From Siphonodentalium dalli (Eukaryota > Mollusca > Scaphopoda > Gadilida > Siphonodentaliidae): a DNA stretch of 64,000 bases. The stretch spans positions 233,242,944 through 233,306,943 of the forward strand of contig CP136061.1 in assembly GCA_032622095.1 (NCBI GenBank). Reading direction: 5' to 3'. Each line of letters starts with the position of its first letter. The stretch's first letter is position 1. The position numbers and the translations under genes were made by a program. Positions 6,588-42,635 of this stretch are shown piece after piece. The notes beneath the pieces were generated by a model. That model had not been told where the DNA came from. It was given only the letters and a program-made list of their open reading frames with translations, and made no database searches.

Positions 6588-6599
6588 AAGTGCAGTTGA

Positions 6600-9830: not shown

Positions 9831-9831
9831 G

Positions 9832-18900: not shown

Positions 18901-21900
18901 ACTGCGGAACATGTCAATAACATTATGTATTCGCTGTGTATTGTCATCGCCCGGTGAGTTATCTTCATGTACTTGTCATAAGTGCTCTTTGGAATGTTAA
19001 TGTTTTGACAAAAATATAGCCCGGAAGGCGGATTGAGCGGGGTTGATAACACTATCGTGTGAAAAAATAAAGTTTATAAAAACGCGAGTCCTCATGTGAA
19101 CTCTATATTCGGGTGCATGTTCACGATGTTGCTCTAAATGCAGTGTTTTCGGCTGTGGCCGGTATAGTGACTCTCAATAAGGTATAACTCTACATTCATT
19201 TCCAAGCGATTTTCGTTTACGTGACATTTGGTAGGATTTCTGTGGGAAACCCATTGCGCAAAATCAGAAACTATTAAAATGGTTGACGATGAAATGGTCC
19301 AGAATTTGTTCCGTCCACTTCGAAAAAAAAGGTGTTTTGAGCACATGGTGAATACACTTTGCCCCAACAGTGGCTACCGATGACAACTCAGAAGAGACGC
19401 AACACCCACATTAAACAAACCTACCACTAACGGGAATGCCATCATAAGAAAAACATCAACTCCCGAAATTATATAAATTTGCCGGAGCATCCAGCCGTGA
19501 GTATATCCAATTGAACCTTGGATATACTAAATAAAGAGCTTTTAATTTTATGAGTCGGGTATGGTTACGAATACATAAAATTGCAGTTAAAGTGGGGAGT
19601 ATATTAATGAATAATTTAGTAAATATTCACGATGACAACTATTAAGTTGAGTCCCCACTTTCCTTCACCATGACTCAATAAAGAGCATTTCATGTTCAGC
19701 GTATTCCTGATATCGTGCGAATAAAAAGCCTTTAATAAACCGGAAATTGCTATGACTTTGACTGGTATATAAACATATATATTGAAAGTTTGTGTACATG
19801 TATTTACATGTATTGGTGTTATTAGTAAATATTCACGATGACAACTATTCTAAGTCGAGTCCCCATTTTCCTTTACCATGATTCAACAAAGAGCGTTCCC
19901 TGTTAAGCATATTCCCGATATGGTGCGAATAAAGACCGTTTGTATATGTGATTACTTATTAAATCGGATTTGTGTCCCTCCTTCAAAAAGTGTTATATAT
20001 GATTGGATGTTCAAACGAACCACAGCCAACGTTTTTTTAATTGACACAAAATGGTCGATGATATGTAATTGACACAAAGAGGTCGATGATATTTTCCAAA
20101 TGCCATATATACATAGAAAAACTTGCAAACAGCATAAGGCTACGGAACGGAAACTGTCATATGTTTAGAAAACCTGAACAGTTCAAAACATTCATATGGA
20201 GAGATAATACATTTTCGATCTTATAACTCGTCTGGATTGACTCACAACCACACCAATACTTGTTTTTGTTATGCCCTAAGTACTGGATTCTACAAAGTTT
20301 TATATATGATTATAGTCTGTACGTGTGCGTGGATATGGATACAAGCATCTATTCTATTATTTATACTGATACCTGTTTTAGGGGGTAGCAGGAAGACAGC
20401 CCGATAGGGCTAGGCTACCCCCGACAATATACTGCTTTACCTTATTATGTATTTCTGCCATTGTATCATGTATATTGTAAATAAATTATCCTATCCTATC
20501 ACTTTAAAACATATTATTGGCTTACTTTAGTGAATAAAACAGGTAAGATAGTATTCAAACATTATCTCCACTGAAGAATGTATAGCTAAGATTATTGTAA
20601 CAGAACGATGTTTCCACGGACTGTTCTTTCACTAGAATCTTCCAAATTATAAGGCTACTTTTAAAAACCTAGAGACTTTCAAACTTTGATAGTCAGATTA
20701 TTGTAAGGTACAGTGTGTACTCAAACTGGAACAGGGTAAGGACACAAGAACATACTTAGTACTGATGTCCTCTCATGGGAATGTTGGTCACAAGGAATGG
20801 TGAGGTGAATTCCTGGATGTACCGGTACCTGCGCAATAAGTTATATAAACAATTTTTTACACATTGCATGGGTACATTCAGGATTTGATGACAATGACGC
20901 CAAATTATTTTAGGTGTGCAGACCATTTGGCCATTCAGGTACACTGCACTTGGTGAACCCAGGAAAAACCACAAATGTGACATGAGTTATGTATTCTGAC
21001 AGGCTCAAGTTTAAACATATGTCACTTGCTATTGCAAAACAAATTGACCTTTCCCTATAAATACTGGACCAGAATTCTGGATCCGGTTTGTATGTTTATA
21101 CATCTTCCAGTCATACATCCTCATCATTTATCTGTTTCTATAGAATATGTCATCACGATTCATAGAATAAAATATTGGAATTATTACTAGAGGATCATTG
21201 TCCTTAATATATACGTATCCCAAAAGTATACACAACGTGAAGAGTGGAAGGAAAATAAGGACAGGGTAAAAACGCCCAGGGACTCTGCTACAATTATCAA
21301 CTAAGATTATTGAAAAGTCCAACCACCATTTCAGAGAAGACAACATTTGAACTAGGGACCAGCCTTGAGGGAGACTCGGGACAAATATTCTCCCTAAAAT
21401 ATGGCACTTCTCCCTATTTTTTGCCCCAGGGAGAAGTGCGTTCTGTCTCATATACCAGTATGCATATGTCCCAACAGCATATTTAAAGTAGATTTATTGA
21501 TTACTAGCTGATATGCCCGACTTCGTCCGGGCAATTTAGGGATTTTTTTGTGATCGCCTCCGTCTGGGCAGAATCGGTCCAGAATCATGCCTATATGGGG
21601 GAGGTCAAGGACACAGTTGCACGTGAAATTGGACCCGCCCATATTGTTCCCAGGATCAAAGTAGACCTACAATCCAAATTAGAGTTCGATTGGTTGAGGA
21701 CCAGAAACATGCCTATATGAGTATATGAGCGAAATCAAGGTCAAGGACATGGTCGCGCGTGAAATTGTACCCACCCATATTGTTCCCGGGATCAAAGTAG
21801 GCCTACATACCAAATTTGAGTCGGATCAGTATAGCAGTTTTCGAGTCTATAACACATACACATATAGACAGAAGTTCCAAAATATATAATAGACTAGCTG

Positions 21901-24900
21901 GGAGACCCTGTCGTTGCTCGGGTAAAGAATGAGTAAATTGTTAGTGCCCCCTCAAGTCATTTAAATTAATTATTAGTCATCTGAGGTAAACAGCACAGAA
22001 TCGTATTGCATGACAATCCCAGGATAAAGTTACCTCTATCTTTTATGTTGATAATAAACACTCTTCATTGCTAACTATTAGTGCCTCTTTAAGATCAACA
22101 TCACCTATCCCATGACACTCCCCGTGTCTAATGACCTCTGTGTGTCAATTTTTCCACATACATTGTATCTTCTGAGCTAATAATATAATTACTTAGTCCC
22201 CAGTTAAGTCATCTGAAGTCAAAAATGCCTATGATATTCCCCTGGTCAGGTGACCCCTGTGTGCCAATTTTCCTTCAAATTGTCTGAGCTGATAAGGAAC
22301 ATTCTTTATTGCTCATATATCATAATATAATTGTTAGGTTCCCCATTAGGTTCAACAGCACCTATATAATGGTACTCCCCAGATCAATGTGCTTCCCAGG
22401 TCATTCATTTTGGGAATGTGATTAATTATGGTGTAAATAAATTGTTTCTTAAGTCATGTGAGCCACCTATCCCGTGACACTCGTCAGGTAAATTTACCCC
22501 TGTGAATAAATTATCAATGACCAGATTCCAACCATTTTGGATATATAATTAATTATTTGGTTAAGATAATTATTAGTGCCCCATTAAGACATCTGATGTC
22601 AATGACACCTATATCTTGACTCTCCGGGTCAATTGACCTCGGTTACACATTTTCAGCTCCAGTACAGGTTGTCCAGCTGTTTGGTCGACCATAGCCCGAC
22701 AGGCAAAACAAAAAACAAAACAAAATTGAGTTTTATTTGTACATGTAGATAATAATGGTATTCTTACTCACTATAATCATTTTATAAATGGGCTCTTGTG
22801 TTGTATAATATAAATTGGATCATAGAAGGGTGAAATTGTACTTCATCCATTGTTACTTCTCCCTGATAACTGTCCCCATCTCCCTTCTCCCAATCTGAAA
22901 CCTGAGTCTGGTCCTTGCTACATACAAAACTAATTTTTTGAAAATCTATACATATAAAAGAGTAGGATCTGTCTGTCTGTCCAGATTTTTCTCTCAGACC
23001 CCTGGACCGATTTCAACCAAATTTGCTGTGGTGACTCGGGTTATTCTGGTAGAGGTTTTTTTGGAGATCAAACTATTTAAACAATCAATATGCGCATGTA
23101 TCGTACACATGGGGCACAGATCTCTAATGCACAAATGAGCCGATGGCCTTTGGCCCCTTTGTGCAGGCGCCACAGGCCCCTCCTTTGGGAGCCTTTTTCG
23201 GCTATTAACTCATATTGGAATGATTCTTCGTTTTTCCATTCTGAAAACTTCCGTGGAGAGTTTCACATCACTTTAATTGTCAAGTTTATTTTTAGATTCT
23301 ACCAAGGATCTGTTAAAAATGGTCGCATCAGTGCAAGACGAACAGAGGCAAATAGCTGCTGAGATTAATGCTTTGAAGTTCCAGGTCGAAACGGTGAGAA
23401 GAACTTATCTATGTAGTTTACTATTGCTGACATATGTTTTGATGAATTATTGTGGGTGTCCATCTGTCATGTCACAATGTAAGTGTGGTGACTTTAACAA
23501 ACTTTCTTCGTTTTTGACTAGATTTGGTCCATGGTTTCTACTCATGTGTCCTGACTCCCTTGAATGAGTTTGATAATCAGTTCCGTCGGAACTACTGGAC
23601 CATTTACATGTGTATCTATTATCCCGGCATAAGCGCGATAACTTCAACAAACGTTATCTGATTTCAACCAAATTTGGTTCATGTCTTAGTGGGGCACTAA
23701 TGCTTCGCACAGTACTATTTTTCATGCATTAAAGATCACTCGCATACTGACGTATAGTGGTCAGTCTATTCCGAGTTCCACCCTGCACACTGTGTAAAGT
23801 TTAGTGATGTGTTGTGACTGTTGTCTCACTCCAACGGTGGGTAAGATAATTGTCTATTTCGATCAATGGTATTGATGTTGTGAAAAGACCCAAGCACGCT
23901 CATTTAAATACACCTCTGCGCCTCGCGCGTCGGTGTCATTAAAGTGCTGGGGTTTCCCATAACATCAATACCTATTGCTCAGTAGGTAATTATTACCACC
24001 CGTCCCATTTTTTTTTCAGCAGGGAATATAGGAATGGGTTCGTCCTTCTGTCTGTTCGTCATAACATCCCAAACCGCTTTTCCGGGGGTTATTTCCAACA
24101 ATTATCAATGGATTTAAAAGATTTTGGGAGAATATCTTAAACTAGTTTGCAAACTAGGCCCGGTCGACATTTTCACCAGAGTTACGGCCCTTAAATTGTA
24201 ATTTTTGACGAAAAGTTGTCCATGGGTTATTTGAACTATTATCAATGGATTTGAAAGATGTTTGGTATATTAGTTCACAAAAGGAGTATCTGAAACGAGT
24301 TCGCAAACTAGGGGCCAGGCCATACATTTTCTATGGCCCTCAATTAATTTTTAGCATATTTTTAAAATGCCCATCCCCAACTTTGCCAACTTAGGTTGGG
24401 GAGACTGCCATTGGCGACTGCTTGTTTGTTTTGCTTGGACAATAATTTATGGCAAATTGTTTCAGCTCTCAAAATTATAAAGAGGTTTGTGTTAATGTAT
24501 TAATTAATATTCATGTAAAACTGTAAAGTGACAATTCCGAAGTTAGAGGCCTATCACTGGTTGTTGAGGCTACTTTTTACTTAGTTCAATTTTCATGTCA
24601 GTGATGCCGAGAACTATTGAAATACCATCATTATTAGTGTGGTGCAGTAGAACTACATGTACCTATCTTTACTAAATATTTAACAGTTACCTTCTATGTA
24701 CACAACTATATATAAATATATATCAATATCATGGTGGTCTTAAATGTAATTTCGAGAACAATAAATAACTGCATGCCTTTGGATACATTATTTTTACAGA
24801 AATTATTTTCAGCTTTGAATTCGCTGCTTTGGGTGCGCAAATTCAAAGTGTGCATTTTAAAAACTAAGCAAGAAATAATACTGCATGAATTTAGATATGA

Positions 24901-27900
24901 GTGAGTAATGCTTCAGACTAGAACAAGTACAGTAATGCTCTAATTAATTGACTCCTTAACCACAGCAGAATTATGGGTAATTTTTCAGGATTTAGTCGGA
25001 AAAATATGGCTTGTCGCCATTCATCGGAAAGCTCTCACTGAGAGCTTTCCGATGAATGGCAACAAGCCATATTTCCGACTAAATCCTGAAAAATTACCCA
25101 TAATTCTGCTGTGGTTAAGGAGTCGATTAATTAGAGCATTACTGTAAGTGATACTCCTTGTTTCCCTGGGCCGATAGTAACATTCTTATTTTATTCCTCT
25201 AGCTAGAGATGCAGTGTACTGATGAACGAGATGAACCAGGGGAAGAGAAGCATCCTCCTGTTCACATCCCGGCATCGACAATAAAGGATCTGATGGAGAT
25301 CGAGGCAATGTTGGACAGTCCGTCTGCCATGAAGGCACTGGTAAGGCCCTAAAAATTTAAGCCTAAAAACGAGTGATGTTTACAGTAACAAAGGGAAAAA
25401 TGTAGGGATGGGCGGATATGAAGGCACTGGTCCAACTTTGGGTATTTGATGTCAAAACTTACTGGTTAATTTTTTCTATATTAAATGGGTTCTCCCATTC
25501 ATTTATAAAAGTATACAGTAATGCCCTAAATAATTGACTCCTTAACCACATCAGAATTATTGATAATTTTTCAGGATTTATTCGGAAATATGGCTTGTTG
25601 CCATTCATCGGAAGGCTCTCACTGAGAGCTTTCCGATGAATGGCATCAAGCCATATTTCATGCTTTTCAAAACTTTATGGCTTGAGAAATGATAAATTGA
25701 CTTTGCATGGCCTAATTAGTTGGTATTTGCTATTTTTTTTTCTTCATAGGTTCGCCAGTATAACTGCATAGGTGGATCGTCCCACCAAGAAGTAGTGTCC
25801 AAGATTTTTGCTGCTACAATGGTGCACGACCTTGCAGTAAGAATTAATTGGACTGGAAAAGGGTCCAAGAGGAAACAACCAATGCTCGACTTCCCAAAGC
25901 TCATCAAGTGTATGCTAAGTAAGTGATAATAAAAAGATATCGTAAAAAAACTCAGTTTATCGCTTCATTCCAACAAAATCAAAGAAACTGGAAACTTCAT
26001 ATTTGGACTATTTCTTAGTGAAAATTCATTAGAAACAGGAAGATTTTAACATAAAAGTAACAAAAAATATACAGGAAAGCAAAAGATTAAGACTTGAGTA
26101 TCTGTTGTGATGGCAATAGAGAACTATGTGTGGAAACCACAATATTAAAATTCATACAAGTTGATAGCAAAGGGCTTAAGAGTTTTTGGTCAGAAAATAA
26201 GTCATTTTAGTTATTACTAAAATATTAAGTGTTATGGACACTGAGAAAAATCTTGATGGTTCTGAGGACATCTTTTAAAGACATATTATATATTTATTTC
26301 ACTTGTTGAAACTGATATTTTATGACTCCGCCACTACACCTATTTGAAGAAAGCATCATTAGACTATTATTTTCCAAAATTTCAACAACAACGGATGCAC
26401 CCTTTTGTAGAACACGTCATCAGTCTGCCATTTGTCCCGAACAAATCGCCGGTAAACAAATGAGAATGATTACTAACGAGAGTCACTTTATTTGATGTAT
26501 AATAATATGATAGAATGATGTTGTGTAACTGGCAATTTTGATACAAAATTAATTAAAGTTCCTGCTTTGAGCAAGCTTATTCACTGTGCATCCCATCATA
26601 GTGTTTCACATTACTTTAAGTACATCATTCATGTTGTATATACAAATATACACCTTAAGATGCATCAGGCTTATGAAGTACTCAGCTCGATGTAACATAT
26701 ATACATTAATTCATAATTGAGGAGTATGAAGATTAAAAACGTCTTGTTTGTCTTGTTTCCAGCATCGGCTACGAGACATCAAAATCTCACTGAGGTTATA
26801 TTTGCTAGTCATGCCAAAATGTGTCTTCGTCGTGCACCTGATAGACATGGAGGTCGCAGTCAACAAAAACAGAAAATAAAAAATCAAGTGGAGTCATCGG
26901 TAAGCCAAATATATCATATAATCAAATTTACCTCTGTGTTTTTCAACATGTTTCATGATTTTCAGTGGTTTCACTGATTTTACTGTTTACTGTCTTGGAA
27001 TTGCTTTTGGTGCCAAGGCAGTGGTCTTTCACTGAAAATCATGAAACACAACATTGTTATTCTATGAAAAAAACAATAATTTAGCTGCTTAGTTTCCTGT
27101 CATTTGTAAAACAAAAATGGGTTTCATAAAAAAAATTGGGGATTTTGGGCAACATATTTTATCTTAAAGATATATTATGTACTTATTCGGGTGCATGAAA
27201 CTAGTAAGTTAGTATTCAGGCACTATGCCAACTGAAGGAATATAGCATTCTAGTAACATCGCCGAAAATTTCAAACAAATCGACCTTACCAATCCATAGA
27301 AAACATCGTCTGAGGCTATGCACAATTGGAAATATTTACTTCTCGATTCGGGATGCAACTATCTGCGATAAGCTAACGAAAACGATTTCGCCATCCAGAG
27401 TCGCTGTATTTAATTAATATATAAGAATGGCGGTGTTATTTCGAACTATTATCAATGAATTTGAAAGATGTTTGGTATATTAGTTCACAAAAGGAGTATC
27501 TGTAAAAAAAAGTTCGTAAACTAGGGGCCAGGCCATACATTTTCACTAGAGTAATGGCCCTCAGATTGTAATTTGATTGTAATTGTAATTTTTGAGCATT
27601 TTAAGCCCGAACTAAAACACATATTAACCAATCTCAAACAAATTAATTTTTGGCATATTTTTAAAATGCCCATCCCCAACTTTGCCAACTTAGGTGGGGG
27701 AGACTGCCATTGGCGACTGCTTGTTTGTTTTGCTTGTACAATAATTTTTGGCAAATTGTTTCAGCTCTCAAAATCATAAAGAGGTTTGTGTTACTGTATT
27801 AATTGATATTCATGTAAAACTGTAAAGTGACAATTCCAAAGTTAGAGGCTTATCACTGGTTGTTGAGGCCACTTTTTACTTAGTTCGATATTCATGTCAG

Positions 27901-30900
27901 TGATGCCATGAACTATTGAAATACCATAATTATTAGTGTGGTGCAGTAGAACTACCTATCTTTACTAAATATTTAACAGTTACCTTCTATGTACACGACT
28001 ATATATATATATCAGTATCATGTTGGTCTTAAATGAACTTTCAAGAAAATAAATAACTGCATGCCTTTGGATACATGATTTTTACGGAAAAAACATTTCC
28101 TGCTTTGAATTCGCTGCTTTGGGTGCGCAAATTCAAAGTGTGCATATTTAAAACTAAGTGAAAAATAATAATGCATGAATTTAATTATGAGTAAGGTAGT
28201 GCTTCAGCCTAGAACAACTAAGTGATACTCCTTGTTTCCCTGGTCCGATAGTGACATTCTTATTCTATTTCTCTAGCTAGAGATGCAGTGTACTGATGAA
28301 CGAGATGAACCAGAGGAAGAGAAGCATCCTCCTGTCAACATCCCGGCATCGACAATAAAGGATCTGATGGAGATTGAGGCATTGTTGGACAATCCATCTG
28401 TCATGAAGGCACTGGTAAGGCCCTAAAAAATGTAGGCCTAAAAACGAGTGATGTTTCCGGTAACTTCCGGGAAAAATGTAGGGATAGGCGGAAATGAAGG
28501 CACTGGTAATGCCAAAAAAACTTTTTTTCCAACTTTTGAGTCAAAACTTACTGGTTAATTTTTTCTATGTTCTCCCATTCATTTATAAAAGTATACAGTA
28601 ATGCCCTAAATAATCGACTCCTTAACCACAGCAGAATTATGGGTAATTTTTCAGGATTTATTCGGAAATATGGCTTGTTGCCATTCATCGGAAAGCTCTC
28701 AGTGAGAGCTTTCCGATGAATGGCAACAAGCCATATTTCATGCTTTTCAAAATTTTATGGCTTGAGAAATGTAAATTGACTTTATATGTCCTAATTAGTT
28801 GGTATTTGTTGTATTTTTTTTTCATAGGTGCGTCAGTATAATTACATAGGTGGATCATCCCACCAAGAGGTAGTATCCAAGATTTTTGCTGCTACAATGG
28901 TGCACGACCTTGCAGTGAGAATTAATTGGACTGGAAAAGGGTCCAAGAGGAAACAACCAATGCTCGACTTCCCAAAGCTCATCAAGTGTATGCTAAGTAA
29001 GTGACAATAAAAAGATATTGTAAAAAAACTCAGTTTATCGCTTCATTCCAACAAAATCAAAGAAACTGGAAACTTCATATTTGGACTATTAGTGAAAATG
29101 CATTAGAAACAGGAACAAGATTTCAACCTAAAAGTAACGAAAAATACAGGAAATTAAATGATTAAGACTTGAGTAGCTGTTGTGGTGATAATATGCCCTA
29201 TCACTAACTCCTGGCCATTTTAGATCCACCAGGTCCGGTTCCGTGGTTTCATAGATTCATCCAGCCCGGTTCCGTGGTATCAGTGCTACAGGTCAAAGTT
29301 TTAAATTCTTCTAGACGCAAGATCTGTTCATTTCTCATGAACGTTTCTCTTTATGCTATTGCGAACGACAACACGCAGTTGCCTAATTTCGTGCACTACG
29401 CACGTGTTTTCCAATTTTCGCAATTTAGTTTTACAATTGTTCAACAATCTTTTATTCTACAATACTGTCTTATTAATGACAGTAGTCCGTGGGTGGATAT
29501 TTTCATTAACAAATATTTCAATTTTGTTTTATTTACGAGAATCACTTCGAACAAATATTGTTTTTGTTTGCATAAAACAATACTCAATAGAAAAAACCAA
29601 TGCTCTTTAGAGTCATTCGGGTTCTCGTCAGGATTTTTTAACACTGCACCGGATGCAATATTGTGTTGTCGTCTCCACTAAGCTCCAGTTTGGAGTTTGG
29701 TCCCTGACAAAATCCTATCCAAATGTATTAGAAGTAATAATTTACAATATTTTACATTACAATATTTTACAATAATTTTCCTCACGGATGCTAGATAAAA
29801 TAGCCACAGTGTGGCTTGCCTCTTCTCTCTACATTGAACATGCGTCTCAATGCTTTTACGATGAAAACTTTGTAATGTTTTTTTCCCTCCGACTGGTAGG
29901 GGTGCCACGATTGATCGTATAATCGATGAAACGTTGATACAGCCGATATTCAATTACCACTTTCGGCGGCGATTACTCTTGAGTTCTTTATTTCGGATGT
30001 CGAAAAGTACCGGAAATATTTCGATACCCTGTTTTACAGTTTAATATCCATCGGGCAGGTTAACGATCATTGATCGTGCAAAGATATTGTAACACATTGT
30101 GCTCATTACTAATTACCGGCTTTCCTTCCCACGAGACAGTAACGATTGCTCTCGCAATTTTCTATTCACGCGTATTCACCATTTGCACTTGTCCACCTGG
30201 TCACCATCAATATTAAAATATGTGAAGATATATTTAGCACATTTCCCATCTCCGTTAATTTATGGGCATGTGAAAGTGTCAGTGGACTTGGGTATATCAC
30301 ACAATGACCTTTGATTTGAGATAACCCCAAATTACAATTATATTACCGGTGCAATTACACCCTTCTAATCAACGAAACTGTATTTTTTGTCATGGGAAGG
30401 ACAGTCTTGGTGGTTTCTGATACAAATTATGCACATCTGCATATTATGCACTACTTCCTCTGTCCTTGCTATTAGATACGCTTCATCGAATCTAATCTAG
30501 TATTGACTATCGATTATCAAGTTCAATGATCGTGGCACCTCTGCTGACGTGGCACCTTCTCTTGCATCCTCCATTAACTTGGAGACTCCGCTGGAGTTTG
30601 TTGGTGGACATGCCTCCTCCCTCAGGGTCGCGGTGTCCATAGCCCCCGCAGAGAAGGGCAGCGATGGTGGTCCAAGTGCAGCTGCCCTTGGTCCTGCCTC
30701 CGGGTTCGCACCATCGCTGCACCAGCCGGCCACTTGCTACAGCTACCACATCAGTGGTCCGTTTAGCTCGCAAGCCCGGTGCCCTCGGCACATTGCCTGC
30801 CTACGCAGTTCAATGTGTCAACTGCCACTGCTGCCACTCCAGGGGATTTGACCGCACGGGTTCTGACCTGTCCTCCATTCGTCAACGTCTTTTCCGGCAT

Positions 30901-33900
30901 CCGTCCCTCCCGGTTTTGGGGTGGGTATGTATCCCTATTATTCACCTGTGTTCTTTCCTCCACCAGTGTGGCCTTGCTTTGTACAGTTTCTGGCCTCTTT
31001 TGGGCTCCTAGGCCAGAACTTAGACTTAGTTTCCTTTCCGAGGCGCCGGAATTTCTTGCCTCATCAAACCAGGTGACCTGGTCTGGATACTTGCCCCTTT
31101 TCCCCCATCTCCTGGACGGACGGTGCTGTTCAGAGACGAGGACTTGCTGTCGACTCGCAACATCTCCTGGATTTGGCAGCGTTTGATGCATGTCCGTGTT
31201 CGCCATGCCCATCCGAGAGTGCCTCCCTGAGGGTCATTTCGGATGGGTCAGTCCTTCGGTCTTAGGATAACAATTACGCACAATTTTGCATGCATTACCA
31301 GCACGATACTAACAGCACAGAAAAAGGAAGAACAAACAGCGCCATTCTCTTGCTTCCTCCATTCACATGGAGCCTCCGCTGGAGTCGGTTGCGGGACATG
31401 CCTCCTCCTTATTGGTCGCGGCCTCCTGAGCCATCCGCAGAGAAGTACGCCTGTGTCTTCCACAACCGAAGGACTGGATGGGGCCCACATATCAAGAACA
31501 AAAACCAACGTGTGACGATTTTCCTCTGCCAACTCGATACAGCCTGCGCAGCAGGCTCTGGGTCTGTTTAGTGGTCATGCCTCCTCTATTTGTAGTCATG
31601 GCTTCCACAACCTTCGCAGAGACGGTCAACAATGGATTTTCCTCTGCCAACTCGATACAGCCTGCGCTGCAGGCTCGGAATCTGTTGGTCGTCATGCCTC
31701 CTCTATTTGTAGTCGCGGCTTCCACAACCTTCTCAGAGATGGGCAACAATGAATTTTCCTCCGTCAACTCGGTACAGCCTACACTGCAGGCTCTGAATCT
31801 GTTGGTGGTCATGTCACCTCTATTTGTAGCGGCTTCCACAACCTTCGCTGCGACGAGCAGCGATGGAGGTTCTGCAGCATCTACCGCTGGTTCTGTCTCA
31901 GTCCATCCAGGTTCATGCTGTCACGGCACATAGCGGTTTTTCCGAACCCTTTCTTGCCTTGGCTACCTCATTGTTCCTAGTCGCTGACAAACGGCATTCA
32001 TTCGACTGAGTGTTTTGTACAATATTACCTTTGTTCTTTGTACTTTGAGGTTTCCTCGGTCAGTCTGCTTTCTGCCATATCGCATTGCTCTGGCTATGTG
32101 CCGCATTCAGGAACTGCTCCTGAATAAGTTTCTTTCGCCTCCATTCTCACCTCCGTTCTTATCCCGTCGGGGTATTCCAGGTGTTGTTGAGACCTGTCTT
32201 TATAGTTTTGGGCCTTCTAATCTGTTAGATTTTTATTCAACAATTAGGCCGCTTTTATGAGACAAACCTAGACGTATTATGGACATGATTGTGTGTGTGA
32301 ACCTGATAAGTTAGTATGCGGGTGCTATATCTCACAGGGGAAATTGGCGCTCTACTCACTTAGCTGAACATATCATGAATATCGACCGTTCAGCTCCATA
32401 GACACTATCGTCTGAACTACGCTCATTTTCAATTTTACTTCTAGATTTGGGATGTATCTTTCAGTGACCACCTAACACCATAGGATTTCATCATATAGCG
32501 TATCGGCATTTCATTGGTGTCTAGGCGGCATGTATGTAGTCCATTTTGTTATCGTATTTGTCACAGCACAGACTTTGAACAAAGAATATTTTCCAATTCT
32601 ATGTTATCACTCGGCCGAGTGTTTAACATCACTTGGCAGGCGTGATTCTAATTCTAATCTGATTTAGAGATTACCGACATTTCACAATTATTGCTGCATG
32701 CCCATCGGTGCTTGAGCACACCAGTTGGCGGGTTATCACAGTTTTTGTAACTTTCTGCTAACCAACGGTATGGGTTCCCTATACCACCACCTGACGAACG
32801 ATATTAAACTAAGTTCCACATTTATTTTGAAACCATGCAGGCCAGTTCATTGCATCACAGATTGGCTGTATGATCAGACAGTGTTCCATTCGCGGTATTA
32901 GTTCCTCTCCTCGGTTGCCCGTACACTTCAATTTCCAGTTCCTTGGCTTGGTGTACCAGAGGCAGGCAATCTTTCCATCTTGGTCCCCTCCCTTATGTGT
33001 ATGTTTTTTCTTTCCATGATTTCCAGTGCTCAACTCAGTCATGTTTTCCTGGTGTATCCCTGGTCCCCCCCCATTGGTCTGGGCCCAACGGTTTCTCATA
33101 TCTCCCCTGGGTCTCTCGGTCGGGCTCAAAATACTGTCAAGTCTGTCATACCGCACTGAGCATTGTATTATGGGCCAGTCAACATCTGGATGTCGTGCTA
33201 GTGCTGCTTCATCCTCTAAGGAGGGGGGTGGGGTAGGTTCCTTTATCCTATTGGGTACATGAATGAATGAGTTATCCCCCTTGCCTAGGACCAATGTTTA
33301 TCCTGGACACCTTCACCCTGTGATCATTACTAGTAGGGCACATGACGTGTGTTTCCTTTTAGGAGGCTCAGTGTTTTTGAGTTTATCTGAACTATTACAT
33401 ATGGGACACAATGACCTATTTTTTGGCACATGTCTACCAAGAAATCTTTTTGGTACAGGATGCAGGTCTTTTCTGCTTCAGCAGGTGGGTTTCATGGACA
33501 TAGTCGGATTATCTGCCTCGTGGCCTCCTCCTCTTCAAGAATTCTAATTATAACCATTAGTTTCAGTGTCCAAGATATATTTGACGGAGATATAATATTT
33601 TTTTACCCAAAATATGTATCTCCTATAATAAATATCTTGGACACTGAACACAGCAAGGGCCCTCCCGGTTGGGATCAACATTCCCGCCCCGCGCACTCGG
33701 TCAAACGCATCAAACACACAGGAGGAAGAAATTAAAATGGGAAGGAAAGCCGGTAATGAGCACAATGCGTTACAAATATCTTTGCACGATCAACGTTCGT
33801 TAACCTGCCCGATGGATATTAAACTGTAAAACAGGGTATCCAAATATGTCCGGTACTTTTCGACATCCGAAATAAAGAACTCAAGAGTAATCGCCGCCGA

Positions 33901-36900
33901 AAGTGGTAATTGAATATCGGCTGTATCAACGTTTCATAGATTATACGATCAATCGTGGCACCCCTACCAGTCGGAGGGAAAAAAACATTACGAAGTTTTC
34001 ATCGTAAAAGCATTGAGACGCATGTTCAATGTAGAGAGAAGAGGCAAGCCACACTGTGGCTATTTTATCTAGCATCTGTGAGGAAAATTATTGTAAAATA
34101 TTGTAATGTAAAATATTGTAAATTATTACTTCTAATACATTTGGATAGGATTTTGTCAGGGACCAAACTCCAAACTGGAGCTTAGTGGAGACGACAACAC
34201 AATATTGCATCCGGTGCAGTGTTAAAAAATCCTGACGAGAACCCGAATGACTAAAGAGCATCAGTTTTTTCTATTGAGTATTGTTTTATGCAAACAAAAA
34301 CAATATTTGTTCGAAGTGATTCTCGTAAATAAAACAAAATTGAAATATTTGTTAATGAAAATATCCACCCACGGACTACTGTCATTAATAAGACAGTATT
34401 GTAGAATAAAAGATTGTTGAACAATTGTAAAACTAAATTGCGAAAATTGGAAAACATGTGCGTAGTGCACGAAATTAGGCAACTGCGTGTTTTCGTTCGC
34501 AATAGCATAAAGAGAAACGTTCATGAGAAATGAACAGATCTTGCGTCTAGAAGAATTTAAAATGAATGAGGTCTTGTCTTTCAAGCGCTGTTATAGTGAA
34601 AGGACTCGCATGATTGGTCCAAAGATATAATCGCCATTAATTGGCATTTGACAAGTGCGCGTACTCGAGGTATTGCGTACCGATTTTAAAAACGACTTCT
34701 AGAAATCTTGCAAGCAAGAAATATATAACCATTAGTTTCAGTGTCCAAGATATTTATTATAGGAGATACATATTTTGGGTAAAATAATATTATTTCTTGT
34801 ACAAGTCAGGTCATGGTGAAAAGTCATATTGGAGACACGCAGTGTCGAGTCCAATATGACTTTTCACCATGACCTGGACTCGTACAAGAAAAACACATAC
34901 TGTACACAAGTTTCACATTACTTTAAGTACATCATTCATATTGTATATACAAATATACACCTTAAGATACATCAGGCTTATGAAGTACTCAGCTCGATGT
35001 GACATATACATTAATTCATAATTGAGGAGTATGAAGATTAAAAACATCTTGTTTGTCTTGTTTCCAGCATCGGCTACGAGACATCAAAATCTCACTGAGG
35101 TTGTATTTGCTAGTCATGCCAAAAGGTGGCTTCGTCGTGCACCTGATAGACATGGAGGTCGCAGTCAACAAAAACAGAAAATAAAAAATCAAGTGGAGTC
35201 ATCGGTAAGCCAAATATATCACGCAATCAAATTACCTGTGTGTTTTTCAACATGTTTCATGATTTTCAGTGGTTTCACTGATTTTACTCTTTACTGTCTT
35301 GGAATTGCTTTTGGTGGCAAGGCAATGGTCTTCGAACGAAAATTGTGAAATACAACATTGTTATTCTGTTTAGTAGCCTGTCATTTGTAAAACAAAAATG
35401 GGTTTCATAAAAAATGTTGGGCAACATATTTTATCTTAAAGCTCGTATACTGGAGACATTGGAAACCAATGTTGACAACTTCTTATCACTTCGTTGCCTC
35501 AAGAATGGTGTTACCATAGCAACAGTATGTGATTTCTGATAATTCTGGAAAATGACCATATATGAAGTATTTTAGTGATAGTGGTGGACCTATTGGTGGA
35601 TATAGTTATATAGTAATATTTATATGTATAAATTCTCCATGGTGGACAGCCAGTACTTATCTAAGGGTCAAGGTCAATGAAAGTACATTATAAAAAATTG
35701 AGTGATTATTATTTCTGTGATAGATTTTTCGAAACATGTGACTGGGCCAATGCCCACCCATAATGTGTGGCAATTGTTTATGGGGAAGGTCGATTTTTCA
35801 TTTTAGTCACATGTTTTGTAAAATTTCTCACATGAGTAATAATCACCCTATGGATATGATATATGGCTCAAAATAAAGGCTATCTAACCAAATGATAGGC
35901 TACCAGTTGCTTAAAACTTTCTATACTAAAGCATCATTGATGAGTAGTTACCCATAGGAAATGTTCAGAAAATAAGTTCAACAAACAACCATAGTCATAA
36001 TTTGTCAGTCGTTATATTAGATTAAATTAGTTTGTAATCCTTTACAAAGTTCTCCCTACATTTTTCTGGACCTGGGGAGGTATAATAACCCATGCTTACT
36101 ATGCCAGTCTATGACGGTCAGAAACAAAATTTAAATAAAACACTTACTCACTCATTGATTTTCAAAAAAATTGCCCGAGAATCAAATATCTCTTTTTGTT
36201 TGGCCTTATTATGTACATTTGTCTATAATAGTACTTAACAGTATACTCTATAATTCAACATAATAACTCTAATTTATTATTCTGATCATAGTCGCGAAGG
36301 GATGGGTTAAACATCTGCCGATCATGATTGCCCTCTCATTATCTAAACATTTCCCTAAATAAATTGGGCTTCTTCTGCACTTTTATTTTCCTGTCATCTG
36401 CTTTTATCCTCTCAACATCCCTCCAAATCAATAATAGACCATTCCGATGTACACTTTTTAACTAACTAGTAGAATCCATTTAGTATAGAAAGGGTTAAAC
36501 TATGACATCTTTTTTGGAAGCCAAACAATGATCAACTTGTTCATTTCACAATGAATAAATAATAGCAGTTTTATTTTATCCATAATTAACCCTTTCATGA
36601 CTGGAGATACCATGGCACCAGGCATGATGCATGATGTCTAATATTGTTTATAAATAATAAAGCTGCAGTTGAAACATATCTTTGCTGGACGATTCTCACT
36701 GGTTTAATGAGATTTTAATTTTATTGCAATTATTTAAATCAGAAAGCTTTTTCAATTGTATCAAGACAGTAGACACCGTTAATGAGTTTATATGAGATGC
36801 ATCCAATCAGAATGAGTGTTATAGTGAGTTTATATGAGATGCATCCAATCAGAATGATTGTTATAGTGACAAATATTCAACTTGAGTTACAATTGTTACT

Positions 36901-36966
36901 GTTCTTTGGTTTTTATTTTTCTCTTAACAGGAATCATCTGACAGCAGCTTCGGTGGCAGCTTTTAG
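9889..36966 (+). CDS. Seven-exon gene with DUF4806-type domain (spliced)
   Basis: Joined exons 9889-9971, 11057-11175, 23296-23393, 25203-25340, 25750-25918, 26763-26899 and 36931-36966 give 780 nt, a 259-residue product. Every junction has AG/GT and compatible phase (2,1,0,0,1,0). The start ATG has an in-frame TAG 15 nt upstream. Residues 1-67 are basic and Ser/Thr-rich (SRRQRRK, SPGRPRS). About 70-100 look like a coiled coil. About 120-232 match my memory of Pfam DUF4806: IPASTIKDLMEIE, IGGSS, LAVRINWTGKGSKRK, then the position where copy b has RWLRRAPDR. The tail is basic and then ends ESSDSSFGGSF. DUF4806 has no assigned function; it occurs in cnidarian, mollusc and fish proteins, some linked to transposon-derived genes. 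Exons 4-6 exist twice (b set at 28277-35204), so a 407-residue two-module product or alternative splicing is possible. The exon structure is read directly, the family call is from memory, and expression is unknown. Confidence 0.78.
10095..10510 (+). repeat. Dispersed mollusc-type repeat, two diverged units
   Basis: Intron 1 sequence with 'gtctgtctgcc' followed by two units sharing 'gtctgaactgaatgg', 'gaatttgggtt' and 'cctgccaattttgaccag'-like cores. Such pieces recur at 12900-13110 and in unit 2 (58190-58560). Confidence 0.55.
10613..10729 (+). mobile_element. Half copy of TA-type palindromic MITE
   Basis: Carries one arm of the family complete at 24930-25144 (from taatgccctaaataat to ttcatcggaaagctctca). 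Also present at 58702-58807 in unit 2, so it predates the duplication. Confidence 0.7.
11057..11175 (+). CDS. DUF4806 gene exon 2
   Basis: Acceptor tttatttcag, donor atg/gtgagc. The split arginine codon joins exon 1 in frame and 39 codons follow, rich in Lys, Ser and Thr with SPGRPRSTQVTSTSQQ. The second copy at 59112-59230 differs visibly by one synonymous change (aaa to aag). Confidence 0.78.
11176..12865. other. Intron 2, left part
   Basis: AT-rich non-coding DNA closely matched in unit 2, where it is interrupted by insertions at 59433-60439 and 61518-63310. No further exon found in the phase required. Confidence 0.5.
12866..14796. other. Unit 1-only intron block
   Basis: Absent from unit 2, where the flanks meet near 63710. 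It begins with 'accatagtatggtaaacata' and a (GTCC/GTCTGT)n run at 12928-12964, a common mollusc-type dispersed repeat. The rest is AT-rich without recognised content. Short ORFs across the GTCTGT run (CLSVCLSV) are repeat translations. Confidence 0.55.
15170..16340. repeat. Foldback structure with tandem repeat core
   Basis: About 15170-15400 and 16095-16340 are imperfect inverted repeats (for example 'cctcatagattctcaaaatc' against its complement near 16200-16220). Between them is a diverged direct repeat: 'gtaccttcatggtgtaat' at about 15567 and 15759, each followed by 'gatgtgcaacatgtatatag'. It may be a non-autonomous foldback transposon. No flanking duplication was found. Confidence 0.6.
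16479..17340 (+). repeat. About 375 bp tandem repeat, two and a part copies
   Basis: Units start at about 16481 and 16855 with 'gaggtgaacctat' or 'aaggtgaacctatg', 'acaagctgtttttggtgt' and end with 'ccaggatgggaaagt'. A decayed third piece runs to about 17340. No coding support. Confidence 0.65.
17400..19130. repeat. Intron 2, short tandem repeats
   Basis: A 41 bp exact direct repeat ('gtcgatgttagtaaaatgct' onward) occurs twice at about 17893-17973. About 18060-18120 and 18410-18470 share a diverged 'ttttaccactttcggtctcc'-like unit. Pieces resembling 27240-27400 and 32330-32460 (Ser/Ala-like 'gcgtcccgaatcgag' and complement) occur near 17810-17880. No gene seen. Confidence 0.45.
19139..19440 (+). 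pseudogene. THAP-domain pseudogene fragment
   Basis: In one plus-strand frame from 19139: CSVFGC (the C-x4-C pair), then LHSFPSDFRLRDIW, then ICSVHFE (the C-x2-H pair), spaced as in THAP zinc-dependent DNA-binding domains. Two in-frame stops interrupt it (about 19178 and 19232) and a third falls at 19381. After a frameshift, DATPTLNKP resembles the proline motif that closes THAP domains. THAP domains occur in host regulators and in P-element or Kolobok-type transposases. The origin here is unknown, and the fragment lies inside intron 2. Confidence 0.7.
19619..19940 (+). repeat. About 205 bp direct tandem repeat
   Basis: 'agtaaatattcacgatgaca' occurs at 19619 and 19824, each followed by about 110 bp of similar text ending 'gtgcgaataaa'. 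Sequence to 20340 has nothing recognised. Confidence 0.6.
20340..20515 (+). mobile_element. Probable LINE/SINE 3' end
   Basis: 'gggggtagcaggaagacagc' leads to 'attgtaaataaattatccta' and a (TCCTA) repeat tail, the usual look of a retroposon 3' end. No open frame upstream. Confidence 0.45.
20516..23295. repeat. Intron 2, degenerate repeats before exon 3
   Basis: 21505-21880 holds two related units ('catgcctatatg', 'cccatattgttccc', 'ggatcaaagtag') after 'ctagctgatatgcccgactt', a motif common near the ends of LINE-like repeats; a similar ACTAGCTG motif is at 21893. 21940-22640 is a degenerate tandem array (period roughly 120-170) of 'cacctat..tgacactcc' units. 22960-23210 has a GTCTGTCTGTCC repeat and 'gatggcctttggcccctttg'. 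No gene seen. Confidence 0.45.
23296..23393 (+). CDS. DUF4806 gene exon 3 (coiled coil)
   Basis: Acceptor tttatttttag, donor acg/gtgaga. The split codon g/at gives Asp in frame with exon 2 across an intron of about 12.1 kb. The 33 residues include KDLLKMVASVQDEQRQIAAE and continue with a leucine-spaced helix, so a short coiled coil and oligomerisation are likely. The exon ends in phase 0, so it can splice to either exon 4 copy. No second copy lies in the window. Confidence 0.75.
24930..25144. mobile_element. Complete palindromic TA-type MITE (mariner-like)
   Basis: A 215 bp near-perfect palindrome starting CAGTAATGC and ending GCATTACTG, flanked by TA on both sides. Copy b of the local duplication has the empty site (agaacaacTAagtgatac near 28213), so a TA target duplication is shown by comparison. 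TA targets and CAGT ends are typical of Tc1/mariner MITEs. Arms meet at 'agctctcactgagagct'. Confidence 0.88.
25203..25340 (+). CDS. DUF4806 gene exon 4a
   Basis: Acceptor ttattcctctag, donor ctg/gtaagg, 46 codons, phase 0 at both ends. An acidic linker (CTDERDEPGEEK) leads into the start of the domain (IPASTIKDLMEIEAMLDSP). It differs from exon 4b at 8 sites, 5 of them amino-acid changing. Confidence 0.8.
25517..25660. mobile_element. Partial TA-type MITE, intron 4a
   Basis: Left arm complete from cagtaatgccctaaataa. The right arm stops after 'catcaagccatatttc'. The same truncated copy is in intron 4b, so it predates the exon duplication. Confidence 0.8.
25750..25918 (+). CDS. DUF4806 gene exon 5a (domain core)
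   Basis: Acceptor ttcttcatag, donor taa/gtaagt. The 56 codons plus one base carry IGGSSHQEVVSKIFAATM and LAVRINWTGKGSKRKQ, the most recognisable part of the domain. It differs from exon 5b at 8 sites, 7 of them synonymous (the eighth is Cys versus Tyr). The last 70 or so bases are identical. Confidence 0.82.
26763..26899 (+). CDS. DUF4806 gene exon 6a (conserved Trp lost)
   Basis: Acceptor cttgtttccag, donor tcg/gtaagc. It joins exon 5a with a split Thr codon. Where exon 6b reads KRWLRRAPDR, this copy reads KMCLRRAPDR. The usual tryptophan and preceding arginine of this domain family are replaced by two single-base changes. A basic tail (RSQQKQKIKNQ) follows. The exon ends in phase 0 and can join exon 4b or exon 7. 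Confidence 0.78.
28277..28414 (+). CDS. DUF4806 gene exon 4b (tandem copy)
   Basis: Second copy of exon 4 with the same acceptor (ttctctag) and donor (ctg/gtaagg), 46 codons. Changes from 4a include Gly to Glu, His to Asn, Met to Leu, Ser to Asn and Ala to Val. It is open and in phase with exons 3 and 6a. Confidence 0.8.
28597..28740. mobile_element. Partial TA-type MITE, intron 4b
   Basis: Counterpart of 25517-25660 with the same truncation point. Confidence 0.8.
28828..28996 (+). CDS. DUF4806 gene exon 5b (tandem copy)
   Basis: Second copy of exon 5, acceptor tttttttcatag, donor taa/gtaagt, fully open. Almost all differences from 5a are third-position changes. The next in-phase exon, 6b, is 6 kb downstream because a large inverted-repeat structure lies in this intron. 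Confidence 0.82.
29195..29297 (-). mobile_element. Half of a palindromic MITE (family of 46130)
   Basis: Matches the complement of the right half of the element at 46130-46362, from 'atgccctatcactaactc' through 'ggatccaccaggtcc'-like text to 'caggtcaaag'. It abuts the large inverted-repeat structure, suggesting the latter interrupted or deleted part of it. Confidence 0.7.
30507..31212 (-). other. Unidentified GC-rich ORFs in element core
   Basis: Overlapping minus-strand frames at 30507-30791 and 30763-31212 (94 and 149 codons) are rich in Arg, Gly, Ala and Ser. Plus-strand frames of similar length overlap them, so length alone is not evidence, given that GC-rich DNA has few stops. No family recognised. 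Confidence 0.2.
31519..31870 (+). repeat. Three-copy 117 bp tandem repeat
   Basis: Units begin at about 31519, 31636 and 31753 with 'ttttcctctgccaactcg' and contain 'atgcctcctctatttgtagt' and 'cttccacaacctt'. The plus frame 31478-31933 reads LLVVMPPLFVV..ASTTFAE per 39-residue unit. The minus frame 31492-31839 is also open (TTNRGGMTTNRFRACS). Diverged relatives lie near 30590 and 31375. Confidence 0.75.
32809..33294 (-). other. Unidentified 161-codon ORF in element core
   Basis: Hydrophilic, charged product (for example PPPSLEDEAALARHPDVDW, HGKKKHTHKGGDQDGK) with no recognised motif. It is the longest frame of the core's right half and is partly overlapped by plus-strand frames. It could be a remnant gag-like or accessory protein. 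Very uncertain. Confidence 0.2.
33548..33655. repeat. Palindrome repeated outside the element
   Basis: 'tttcagtgtccaagatat' and its complement face each other around a short centre with 'acccaaaatatgtatctcct'. One arm with its left flank (ataaccattagtttcagtg) recurs at 34727-34790, just beyond the right terminal repeat. Confidence 0.7.
34793..34892. repeat. Long hairpin
   Basis: Arms of about 40 bp ('caggtcatggtgaaaagtca' and complement) around 'gacacgcagtgtc'. It marks the right edge of the block inserted in copy b, beyond which 3.2 kb duplication sequence resumes (34909). Confidence 0.75.
35068..35204 (+). CDS. DUF4806 gene exon 6b (conserved Trp kept)
   Basis: Second copy of exon 6, same splice sites as 6a. 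It retains KRWLRRAPDR, which fits the domain consensus I remember, so the b module looks like the more canonical domain. It differs from 6a at three sites, all amino-acid changing. Confidence 0.8.
35444..36755. other. Intron before terminal exon
   Basis: No coding sequence recognised. 35701-35748 and 35807-35852 form an imperfect inverted repeat (gtgattattatttctgtga and complement). 35955-36500 shares phrases with the Harbinger-like element at 59433 ('ggaaatgttcaga..ataagtt', 'tttagtatagaaagggttaa'). Confidence 0.5.
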
Positions 36967-38038
36967 TGAATAAATATTTGGGCGGATTCCATAATTTGAC
37001 GGTATATGAGATGAATGAAAAGACATGTGGACATGTAATCTTGAGGTTATGGGTCATTCAATCGAAACATTTTGATATATTTCGTATTTTAAAAAATGGT
37101 CATATATTTCATAGAAAAACATTCCTGGCTGCTATGGTTAAGTTTATTTAAGTGAGTTTTTAAAAAATAAAAACTCAAATTATCGTTATGATTTGAAAAG
37201 TGACGGATGGCGGGTGAGCATCTGGCCAGATTCCCCATTAACTTAGCTGTTTATTAATTGGATTCGACAATTTTTGGTAAGTGTGTTTGTAACCACGTGT
37301 GAGGGAAACAAAACAGAAAATTGGGCCCTGCCCCGACTTCTTTCCAGAGTCATGGCCCTTATTCTAGTCATAGCAATTTTATGGCCATTTGCACTGGTTA
37401 TGCTGGTAGTGCAATATTTTGAACAAACATCAACCGATACCATTCATAATTGGTGTATGGATCTTGTACAACAATATTTGATCCAGTTTTGCAACATCAG
37501 GTTTGTTCGATTCGTTTTACTTGAGTAATGGCCCTTTAGTTTGTTTTTTTCTAGAATGTTAGTGTGTTAATTTGAACAAATGTCAATGATTCCATTTATA
37601 TTTGGTATATGGCATTTTCACAACTATGTCACAATCGAGGCAGATAACCTGGTTTGTCTGATATTTTTTTTACCTGAATTATGGCCCTTAGTTTGTCTAT
37701 CATTAGTAACATTAAGACCGTTAGCATGATAACTTTAACTGATCAACTGATACTTTCATATTTCGTAAATGAATCTTCCACAACCATATCTCGATCAAGT
37801 TAGAAAATTAGGTTTGTCTGCTTCTTTTTACCTGAGCTATATATACAACCTTAGTTTGTCTATTTTTTATATCAATTTTAAGGCCATTTGTACAATAACT
37901 TGATCAAATGTCATTTATTTATTCAAAACTTTTGATTTTTCACAACAATGTGACGTTCAAGTTCGAAAACCAGATATGTTTGTCTATTTTTAGCAATGTT
38001 AATGCTTTTTGCATAATAACTTTAACAAATGTCAACTG
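36757..38038 (+). repeat. Tandem unit C1 with exon 7a
   Basis: Repeated almost unchanged from 38039. It starts with 'tatcaagacagtagacaccg' and two copies of a 42 bp minisatellite (tgagtttatatgagatgcat onward), then exon 7a, then degenerate about 150 bp repeats ('atggccctta', 'ttgtctgat') to the end. Confidence 0.9.
36931..36966 (+). CDS. DUF4806 gene terminal exon 7a
   Basis: Acceptor ttttctcttaacag followed by ESSDSSFGGSF and a TAG stop, in phase with exon 6a or 6b. AATAAA begins two bases after the stop (36969), probably too close to act as the poly(A) signal. AAAATAAAAA near 37162 is another candidate. Confidence 0.62.
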   Translation, partial: ESSDSSFGGSF

Positions 38039-39360
38039 TATCAAGACAGTAGACACCGTTAATGAGTTTATATGAGATGCATCCAATCAGAATGAGTGTT
38101 ATAGTGAGTTTATATGAGATGCATCCAATCAGAATGAGTGTTATAGTGAGTTTATATGAGATGCATCCAATCAGAATGATTGTTATAGTGACAAATATTC
38201 AACTTGAGTTACAATTGTTACTGTTCTTTGGTTTTTATTTTTCTCTTAACAGGAATCATCTGACAGCAGCTTCGGTGGCAGCTTTTAGTGAATAAATATT
38301 TGGGCGGATTCCATAATTTGACGGTATATGAGATGAATGAAAAGACATGTGGACATGTAATCTTGAGGTTATGGGTCATTCAATCGAAACATTTTGATAT
38401 ATTTCGTATTTTAAAAAATGGTCATATATTTCATAGAAAAACATTCCTGGCTGCTATGGTTAAGTTTATTTAAGTGAGTTTTTAAAAAATAAAAACTCAA
38501 ATTATCGTTATGATTTGAAAAGTGACGGATGGCGGGTGAGCATCTGGCCAGATTCCCCATTAACTTAGCTGTTTATTAATTGGATTAGACAATTTTTGGT
38601 AAGTGTGTTTGTAACCACGTGTGAGGGAAACAAAACAGAAAATTGGGCCCTGCCCCGACTTCTTTCCAGAGTCATGGCCCTTATTCTAGTCATAGCAATT
38701 TTATGGCCATTTGCACTGGTTATGCTGGTAGTGCAATATTTTGAACAAACATCAACCGATACCATTCATAATTGGTGTATGGATCTTGTACAACAATATT
38801 TGATCCAGTTTTGCAACATCAGGTTTGTTCGATTCGTTTTACTTGAGTAATGGCCCTTTAGTTTGTTTTTTTCTAGAATGTTAGTGTGTTAATTTGAACA
38901 AATGTCAATGATTCCATTTATATTTGGTATATGGCATTTTCACAACTATGTCACAATCGAGGCAGATAACCTGGTTTGTCTGATATTTGTTTTACCTGAA
39001 TTATGGCCCTTAGTTTGTCTATCATTAGTAACATTAAGACCGTTAGCATGATAACTTTAACTGATCAACTGATACTTTCATATTTCGTAAATGAATCTTC
39101 CACAACCATATCTCGATCAAGTTAGAAAATTAGGTTTGTCTGCTTCTTTTTACCTGAGCTATATATACAACCTTAGTTTGTCTATTTTTTATATCAATTT
39201 TAAGGCCATTTGTACAATAACTTGATCAAATGTCATTTATTTATTCAAAACTTTTGATTTTTCACAACAATGTGACGTTCAAGTTCGAAAACCAGATATG
39301 TTTGTCTATTTTTAGCAATGTTAATGCTTTTTGCATAATAACTTTAACAAATGTCAACTG
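38039..39360 (+). repeat. Tandem unit C2 with exon 7b
   Basis: Offset is 1280 before the minisatellite and 1322 after, because this unit has three 42 bp copies instead of two. Only a couple of base differences are visible elsewhere (for example near 38586 and 38988). Confidence 0.9.
38253..38288 (+). CDS. Duplicate terminal exon 7b
   Basis: Exact copy of exon 7a with its acceptor, carried by the 1.3 kb tandem repeat. It encodes the same 11 residues and stop, so using it changes only the 3' UTR. Confidence 0.55.
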   Translation, partial: ESSDSSFGGSF

Positions 39361-40200
39361 AATACTCTTCCACAATAATATCTCGAAAAAAAAATGTCAA
39401 CCAATTTGAACTGCATATCTTACAGATTGACTCCTGTAGAAAAAAATTGATGCGCAACACTAGTTTCTCATTGGATATGTAATTTTAATTTGGATATTTA
39501 ATTTTAATTTTCATGTAATTTTTCATCGTAATTGGCTGTTTCATTGGACTTAGCCCATAACATAGGAGTATTTTGACAACCAGCACTTATGTTTATTAAT
39601 GTGTAGCATTTTATTACCACTTTACATTACCTAAGGCCAGTTTCTCATGCCAAAAAAAATTGAAAAGTATGAAAAACATCAACAGAGCATTCCATCTCTT
39701 TATGAGGTAGCTATGTGTCCATATTACCTGAATAGGGGTCCATAAAACTTAGTTTACAGATTCCTTGTGATTTATTTCATTAAAAATCACCCAATAGAGT
39801 ATCATTCATACACTTTATACTGAGTTTGAATTCATCCCATATGTTGAACACATGTTTGAAGATGGTTACAAATTACTTACAGTAACAAATCTAAAATTTG
39901 AATCAGGGGTAAAAGGGTCTGTTTGATTTCACTACTGTGCATGTTTGTATTAAAATGTACCACAATTATTTTGTACCGATTAAAAATTATATTATTATTG
40001 TAAACATTGTTATACTGAGTGAGCAGTATTATTAAATGAGATTGTTTTTGTGGATGTGTGTATGATGGAATAATACAGGTTAAATTTGAACCATAGTTTG
40101 ATCCAATGATTTCTGGCAAAATAAAGTTATGTGCCATTAATTATTATTTAAAAATTCAATTCCAAATTAAAACTGGAGGTTAAATTAAAATATAGGGTCT
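39361..40200. other. Non-coding
   Basis: AT-rich DNA. No gene, repeat family or regulatory site recognised. Confidence 0.5.
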
Positions 40201-41960: not shown

Positions 41961-42043
41961 CATGGCCCAGACCCACCCCCACCCCACCCTGCAGTGGACT
42001 GCACCCAACCAACATCCCTTCCAAATCTCCAGCTTCCACTTAA

Positions 42044-42537
42044 AGGCACGTGAGGCCTTAGTTATCGAAAATATTCATATTTGTTGCAATCACCGTAAAC
42101 AGAAAAACATTAAAACGCATACAGTTTCGTTCATATATACCATGACCATCGCGTAAACAGCATGTTATCATAAAGATTTACTATATTTTACATAAGCAAG
42201 AGCCTGATTGTGTTACAGGAGACAGCACAATGCTGCTGGCTAATCACACACAAATGGCATAAACGCTCTTTATTCGTTCCATATCAGGAATTCACAAACA
42301 AAGAACGCTCTTTATATTTACCATCATAATATAAACAAACACCAGAAAAGTTACTTTTTATGCTTTTGTTTACATAACAATGGTCAAACAAATGACAATA
42401 ACATACTGTTTATGCGATATTTCTTATTTGTATACGGACACAGTCTGTCTAAAAAAAATTGTTCTTTCTGTTTGTGGCGGTTTTTGACGGGTGGAAATAT
42501 TTTCACAGGATACCCACCGCCAAGGCCAACCGTACCT
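42044..42537. mobile_element. TTAA-flanked MITE, family AGGCACGTGAGGCC, copy 1
   Basis: 494 bp, flanked by TTAA (42040-42043, 42538-42541). Ends AGGCACGTGAGGCCTTA and complement of AGGTACGGTTGGCCTTG, an imperfect inverted repeat. Identical in layout to 55270-55763 and 62719-63211. Minus-strand ORFs reading VGLGGGYPVKIFPP come from this element in two copies and are not a gene. Confidence 0.85.
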
Positions 42538-42635
42538 TTAATAACTGTTCTTTTAAAGTTGCAGATATATCTTTGTGGATAGAAAAGAGACAGGCCATCT
42601 TTAATTGAAACATTGCTGATATCTGATCTAAACAA

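Follow-up and report, generated by a model that had tools for sequence, protein, structure and literature searches.

A DUF4806 gene with an internally duplicated three-exon block and its predicted two-domain product

The + strand of the window (the whole 64,000-nt stretch of DNA analyzed) carries an exon-intron gene in which a block composed of exons 4, 5 and 6 is present twice, at positions 25203–26899 and 28277–35204. Each copy adds up to 444 nt (138+169+137), contains no stop codon and has GT-AG borders, as had been proposed in the first-pass annotation of this DNA. The most likely explanation, to which we assign a probability of about 0.5, is that this internally duplicated gene encodes a constitutively spliced protein with two DUF4806 domains. 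The duplication is real, yet of an ordinary kind.

All of the exons are located on the + strand. Exon 3 (23296–23393; 98 nt), found in a single copy by BLAST analysis of the exon copies, contains an ATG codon in the context AAAAATGG. It is followed by exons 4a (25203–25340; 138 nt, phase 0), 5a (25750–25918; 169 nt) and 6a (26763–26899; 137 nt, ending in phase 0), and then by exons 4b (28277–28414; 138 nt), 5b (28828–28996; 169 nt) and 6b (35068–35204; 137 nt). Terminal exon 7 (7a; 36931–36969) encodes the sequence ESSDSSFGGSF, followed by TAG TGA. A second exon 7, identical to the first (7b; 38253–38291), belongs to a separate tandem duplication with a period of 1322 nt. All nine exon copies (exon 3, exons 4–6 twice and exon 7 twice) are open and their splice borders are intact.

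The exon coordinates, lengths and phases given previously were correct: both blocks begin and end in phase 0, and the former end of the gene (position 36966) corresponds to the TAG codon. Three chains were joined in silico (3-4a-5a-6a-7, 3-4b-5b-6b-7 and 3-4a-5a-6a-4b-5b-6b-7), which between them contain the five junctions that had been predicted to preserve the reading frame (3-4a, 3-4b, 6a-4b, 6a-7 and 6b-7). The frame was kept in every case, and all three chains share one frame down to the double stop TAG TGA.

BLAST comparison of the exon copies revealed 94.2% identity over 138 nt for exon 4, 96.3% over 163 of the 169 nt for exon 5 and 97.8% over 137 nt for exon 6. Since the E values of these matches are tiny (3e-57 to 8e-77) and the flanking introns of the two units can be aligned together with the exons, the repetition of the module is not due to chance.

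A profile search was used to examine the suggestion that the module represents DUF4806 (Pfam PF16064). Both copies scored above the gathering cut-off of 25 bits (module a: 37.9 bits, E 2.3e-9; module b: 34.9 bits, E 1.9e-8), and the match covered positions 3–88 of the 90-position profile. In the joined two-module sequence two DUF4806 stretches were detected (E 3.4e-19), together with six other families, all of them below their own cut-offs. The match corresponds to residues 18–102 of the 148-aa module, i.e. to the end of exon 4 and to exon 5, which contributes the bulk of it, while the basic tail encoded by exon 6 lies outside the Pfam model. Inspection of exon 3 by eye indicated a heptad pattern (L5 V9 V12 Q16 I19 I23 L26 V30), continued by L33, the first residue of exon 4. 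The two-module reading comprises 339 aa, or 332 aa when counted from the ATG of exon 3, which is preceded by 7 residues.

DUF4806 has been reported to be a subtype of the BEN DNA-binding domain (Pan et al. 2023, according to a citing passage in PMC11075544). No BEN family was found among the Pfam hits up to E 10, a range in which the HMMER filters drop most weak hits. A sequence search of the PDB yielded no credible relative; the only chain listed (E 1) is not a BEN protein and was taken as a chance match. Exon 5a alone (56 aa) was modelled with a mean pLDDT of 58, too poor for a fold search. No relatives were confirmed among 4 pattern matches in viral contigs or among 73 pattern matches in prokaryote genomes; none were expected, because this is a eukaryote gene.

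The duplicated unit extends beyond the exons. Unit a (24226–27169; approximately 2.94 kb) runs from intron 3 to intron 6, and unit b (27435–35441) has been enlarged by an insertion in intron 5b; the left edges of both units were placed by eye from the alignment. Where the two units meet there is a dispersed repeat (27170–27439), with an inverted relative at 17735–18033 (74% identity). The locus thus displays the features of an internal tandem duplication: a homologous exon block in tandem, matching end phases and breakpoints within introns. The alignment is most simply explained by a single tandem duplication of approximately 2.9 kb whose breakpoints fell within intron 3 and intron 6.

The two copies of intron 5 differ greatly in length (844 nt in copy a and 6071 nt in copy b, as calculated from the exon coordinates). 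Intron 5b is longer because it contains a foldback-like stretch (29194–34909) with long inverted repeats (29299–30131 and 33738–34562; 97% identity over 834 columns), which replaces positions 26119–26602 of unit a. Comparison of five open frames of this stretch with Pfam revealed no transposase and nothing above cut-off, the one hit being a weak match to DUF7104 (E 0.24). Tandem repeats of approximately 117 nt are also present within it (31517–31865).

Splice sites were scored with a hand-set position weight matrix, and percentiles were calculated relative to all AGs or GTs in the window. The acceptor scores of the a and b copies were 7.5 and 7.1 bits for exon 4 (percentiles 97.1 and 96.3), 11.9 and 10.6 bits for exon 5 (99.8 and 99.7), and 10.3 bits each for exon 6 (99.4 and 99.4). 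The donors of exons 4, 5 and 6 (percentiles 99.8, 96.3 and 98.7) are identical in a and b. With scores this close, inclusion of both modules would be the default under plain splicing. Double inclusion is not blocked: the double-module chain is in frame and has ordinary GT-AG borders. Possible brakes on inclusion are the 6-kb intron 5b and a hairpin located before exon 4a (described below).

The two-domain product is regarded as most likely because the splice sites have survived in both copies. As the sequence shows, an internal tandem duplication of approximately 2.9 kb has given this DUF4806 gene two copies of its phase-0 block of exons 4-5-6. The predicted product would consist of a short coiled coil (exon 3) followed by two DUF4806 domains in series, with a length of 332 aa, or more given upstream exons. 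By analogy with BANP, in which oligomerization is required for the selection of unmethylated sites (as stated in part of PMC11472053), two BEN-like units per chain may provide higher avidity or allow one chain to read two adjacent sites. This covalent domain pair may perhaps itself be paired through the coil.

Comparison of the two copies points to selective constraint. The coding parts of a and b differ at 19 of 444 positions (4.3%), without any indel or stop codon. In the noncoding parts, 112 of 1616 aligned positions differ (6.9%) and there are 85 gap columns, over six compared stretches that exclude a palindromic element, everything left of position 24342 and the segment of intron 5 that has been replaced. 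The difference in divergence between exons and introns is marginal (Fisher P 0.048). The 19 coding changes comprise 10 synonymous and 9 residue-changing ones, which gives dN 0.026, dS 0.113 and dN/dS 0.23 (NG86) or 0.028, 0.092 and 0.30 (YN00). When 19 mutations were placed at random (kappa 1–4, 20,000 draws each), the mean number of synonymous changes was 4.1–5.1, and at least 10 were obtained in 0.26–1.2% of the draws (P 0.0026–0.012).

The changes are distributed unevenly among the exons. Residues are altered by 5 of the 8 changes in exon 4 (dN 0.047, dS 0.11), by only 1 of 8 in exon 5 (dN 0.008, dS 0.22) and by all 3 in exon 6 (dS 0). These sequence comparisons suggest that purifying selection, uneven by exon, has acted after the duplication on at least one copy; selection on one and on both would look the same in a comparison that lacks an outgroup. 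Gene conversion at exon 6 was considered and no signal was taken: in 72 of 2000 shuffles a 300-site stretch reached the observed minimum of 7 differences, and the lowest stretches of 200 and 350 sites were matched in 119 and 241 of 2000, respectively. Because three widths had been tried, the exon 6 signal was not accepted.

It is possible, but unlikely, that the locus is a non-functional or 5′-truncated DUF4806 copy with little or no transcription, whose intact frames merely reflect its recent origin. The N-terminal exons were not recognized in the upstream stretch examined. Exons 1–2 were found neither with regular expressions describing an N-terminal motif nor by inspection of + strand open frames 32 codons or longer between positions 13,001 and 23,420. 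A search for internal exons with the right end phase (positions 9,000–23,150) gave 11 candidates, none convincing by eye; its acceptor threshold of 5 bits and the exclusion of first exons mean that real ones could be missed, and exon 3 itself would fail. The acceptor of exon 3 is the weakest of the gene (4.07 bits, 82.5th percentile). Many repeats surround the locus, and DUF4806 can be multi-copy, as in Hydra (69 and 54 in two Hydra columns, compared with 6, 0, 1, 0 and 0 in five others, in a portion of PMC7642931). However, a silent copy does not readily account for nine open exon copies with intact splice borders, for the excess of synonymous changes, or for the absence of indels from 444 coding nt when 85 gap columns accompany the 1616 aligned intron sites.

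A quite unlikely explanation is that part of the repetition is an assembly or haplotype artefact, in which two alleles, or the reads of one locus, have been placed in tandem. The DUF4806 gene is located between the copies of a large duplication (391–15078 and 48971–64000; period of approximately 48.6 kb), which aligns in pieces separated by large indels. These copies differ by 290 substitutions in 10,235 positions (2.83%), calculated for 11 BLAST pieces longer than 200 columns (one of the 12 listed pieces, of 150 columns, was left out) with values of 0.7 to 6.9% per piece. The 48.6-kb unit, within or beside which the locus lies, may have arisen by true tandem segmental duplication, or the assembly may have joined two haplotypes one after the other. 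The exon 7 repeat (36780–38041 and 38102–39363) is even more uniform, with 4 of 1262 bases differing over the 1322-nt period (0.32%; 99.7% identity), and both duplications could represent allelic copies or assembly errors.

One 48.6-kb piece (6.9%) equals the module introns in divergence. However, the 6.9% divergence of those introns is more than double the average for the 48.6-kb copies, the module copies have copy-specific insertions and a separating repeat, and the window contains no N. The synonymous excess also implies time spent as functional sequence, although alleles would show the same. On these sequence features, the module copies are more likely to be genuine paralogs.

Other repeats were observed around the gene. 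The left edge of the 1322-nt repeat holds a 42-nt repeated unit. Open frames matching C2H2 zinc fingers are present on the − strand in both 48.6-kb copies, at 1563–1835 and 49520–49969; against zf-C2H2 (cut-off 25.2 bits) the former passes with 31.3 bits and the latter fails with 21.5 bits. A repeat of approximately 502 nt occurs in three copies (42040–42541, 55266–55767 and 62715–63215; 93.8–95.2% identity), and a cluster of diverged internal repeat copies (66–85% identity) is located at 43357–44273. Rfam and tRNA scans of the window gave no matches (0 and 0).

The first-pass annotation had also proposed that the locus can encode one- or two-domain proteins or choose between its modules. The first part holds insofar as the frame is kept via every proposed junction, but an actual choice is unsupported. 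Regulated module choice would mean inclusion of either 4a-5a-6a or 4b-5b-6b, or of one module versus two, with isoforms distinguished by 9 residues or by how many domains they carry. The exon phases permit this, and the introns contain elements that might be involved. A palindromic MITE-like element of 219 nt (24928–25146, + strand), nearly perfect and flanked by TA, is located in intron 3 of unit a, 56 nt before exon 4a, while unit b has an empty site at about 28217, before exon 4b. This pattern is read most simply as an insertion that postdates the duplication; a less simple alternative is that unit b has lost the element precisely. Partial copies are present on the + strand in introns 4a (25514–25659) and 4b (28594–28739); as they are found in both units, this insertion probably predates the duplication. 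A 20-nt word of the element was also found at positions 10695 and 58778.

As RNA, the element is predicted to form a hairpin of −184.3 kcal/mol, which is specific to copy a and is the most evident difference between the copies around the place where a choice would be made. The 296 nt around the palindrome had a fold z value of −26, while the corresponding 291 nt upstream of exon 4b folded like their shuffles (z 0.05). The element in intron 3 could pair with its inverted counterparts in intron 4a (92% complementary) and intron 4b (97%). As duplexes, the 145-nt pieces had energies of −223.5 and −253.1 kcal/mol, far below those of their own self-folds (−62 to −68 kcal/mol). When local self-folds were summed, −184.3 and −66.4 gave −250.7 kcal/mol for 4a, and −184.3 and −72.2 gave −256.5 kcal/mol for 4b. 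In these models, cross-pairing has no energetic advantage over local folding.

Further evidence makes module choice decidedly improbable. Three exons would have to be skipped jointly, and the splice-site scores of a and b are nearly equal. The arms in intron 4 lie inside the module, so that the loop formed by pairing would contain either just exon 4a or the series 4a-5a-6a-4b. Of the 8 pairs of inverted repeats of at least 40 nt detected between 20 and 40 kb, none is positioned to isolate one whole module. The element also seems to have been inserted after the duplication, whereas in the published route (described in part of PMC6071210) the arm is duplicated together with the exon. The idea that the palindromic transposon acts as a splice switch, in which a hidden or delayed exon 4a makes exon 3 join 4b (one domain) and both domains are otherwise included, is highly improbable; if true, one gene would provide two DNA-binding valencies.

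The exon-swap proposal invites comparison with mutually exclusive exons that arose by tandem duplication, a known class (reviewed in PMC9013439, of which a part is referred to here). The sections of PMC9013439 and PMC6071210 considered describe adjacent homologous exons of the same length, with intact splice sites and intronic inverted-repeat arms, all of which are found in the present gene. It differs in that each copy contains three exons, full inclusion is possible and the long inverted repeats are misplaced for the selection of a whole module. Unlike in the docking/selector design (PMC6071210, in part), pairing between the intron-3 and intron-4 elements would not loop out the whole module.

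In having a match above the gathering score, here in both modules, the gene resembles other DUF4806 (PF16064) genes, from which it differs by two modules in one gene model. A limited literature search on DUF4806, in the portions of the texts retrieved, gave no DUF4806 repeat or comparable exon layout. A similarly limited search for tandem-duplicated BEN domains and multi-exon duplicates in molluscs gave none with such a layout among the matches listed, again in partial texts. BEND3, which has four BEN domains (from part of PMC11472053), likewise carries more than one such domain per chain, as is predicted here. Unlike those of BEND3 as presented there, the modules of the present gene are nearly identical, of the DUF4806 type and recently duplicated, and would be BEN-like according to the reported family assignment.

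The closest parallel to the preferred reading, a two-domain protein from an internally duplicated gene, is the expansion of domain repeats by internal tandem duplication or exon shuffling (Björklund et al. 2006; PMC1553488, in the part considered). There, too, a phase-symmetric block of exons encoding a domain is repeated in tandem by recombination within introns; the present gene contains two units only, and the domain is DUF4806. If expressed, it would represent a fairly young doubling (approximately 7% intron divergence) of a probable DNA-binding domain via intronic tandem duplication. Both copies are intact and a transposon hairpin lies beside only one of them, which raises the question of whether a new multi-exon duplicate is included or alternatively spliced. 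This locus, with a block of three exons present twice within one gene, leaves general views unchanged.
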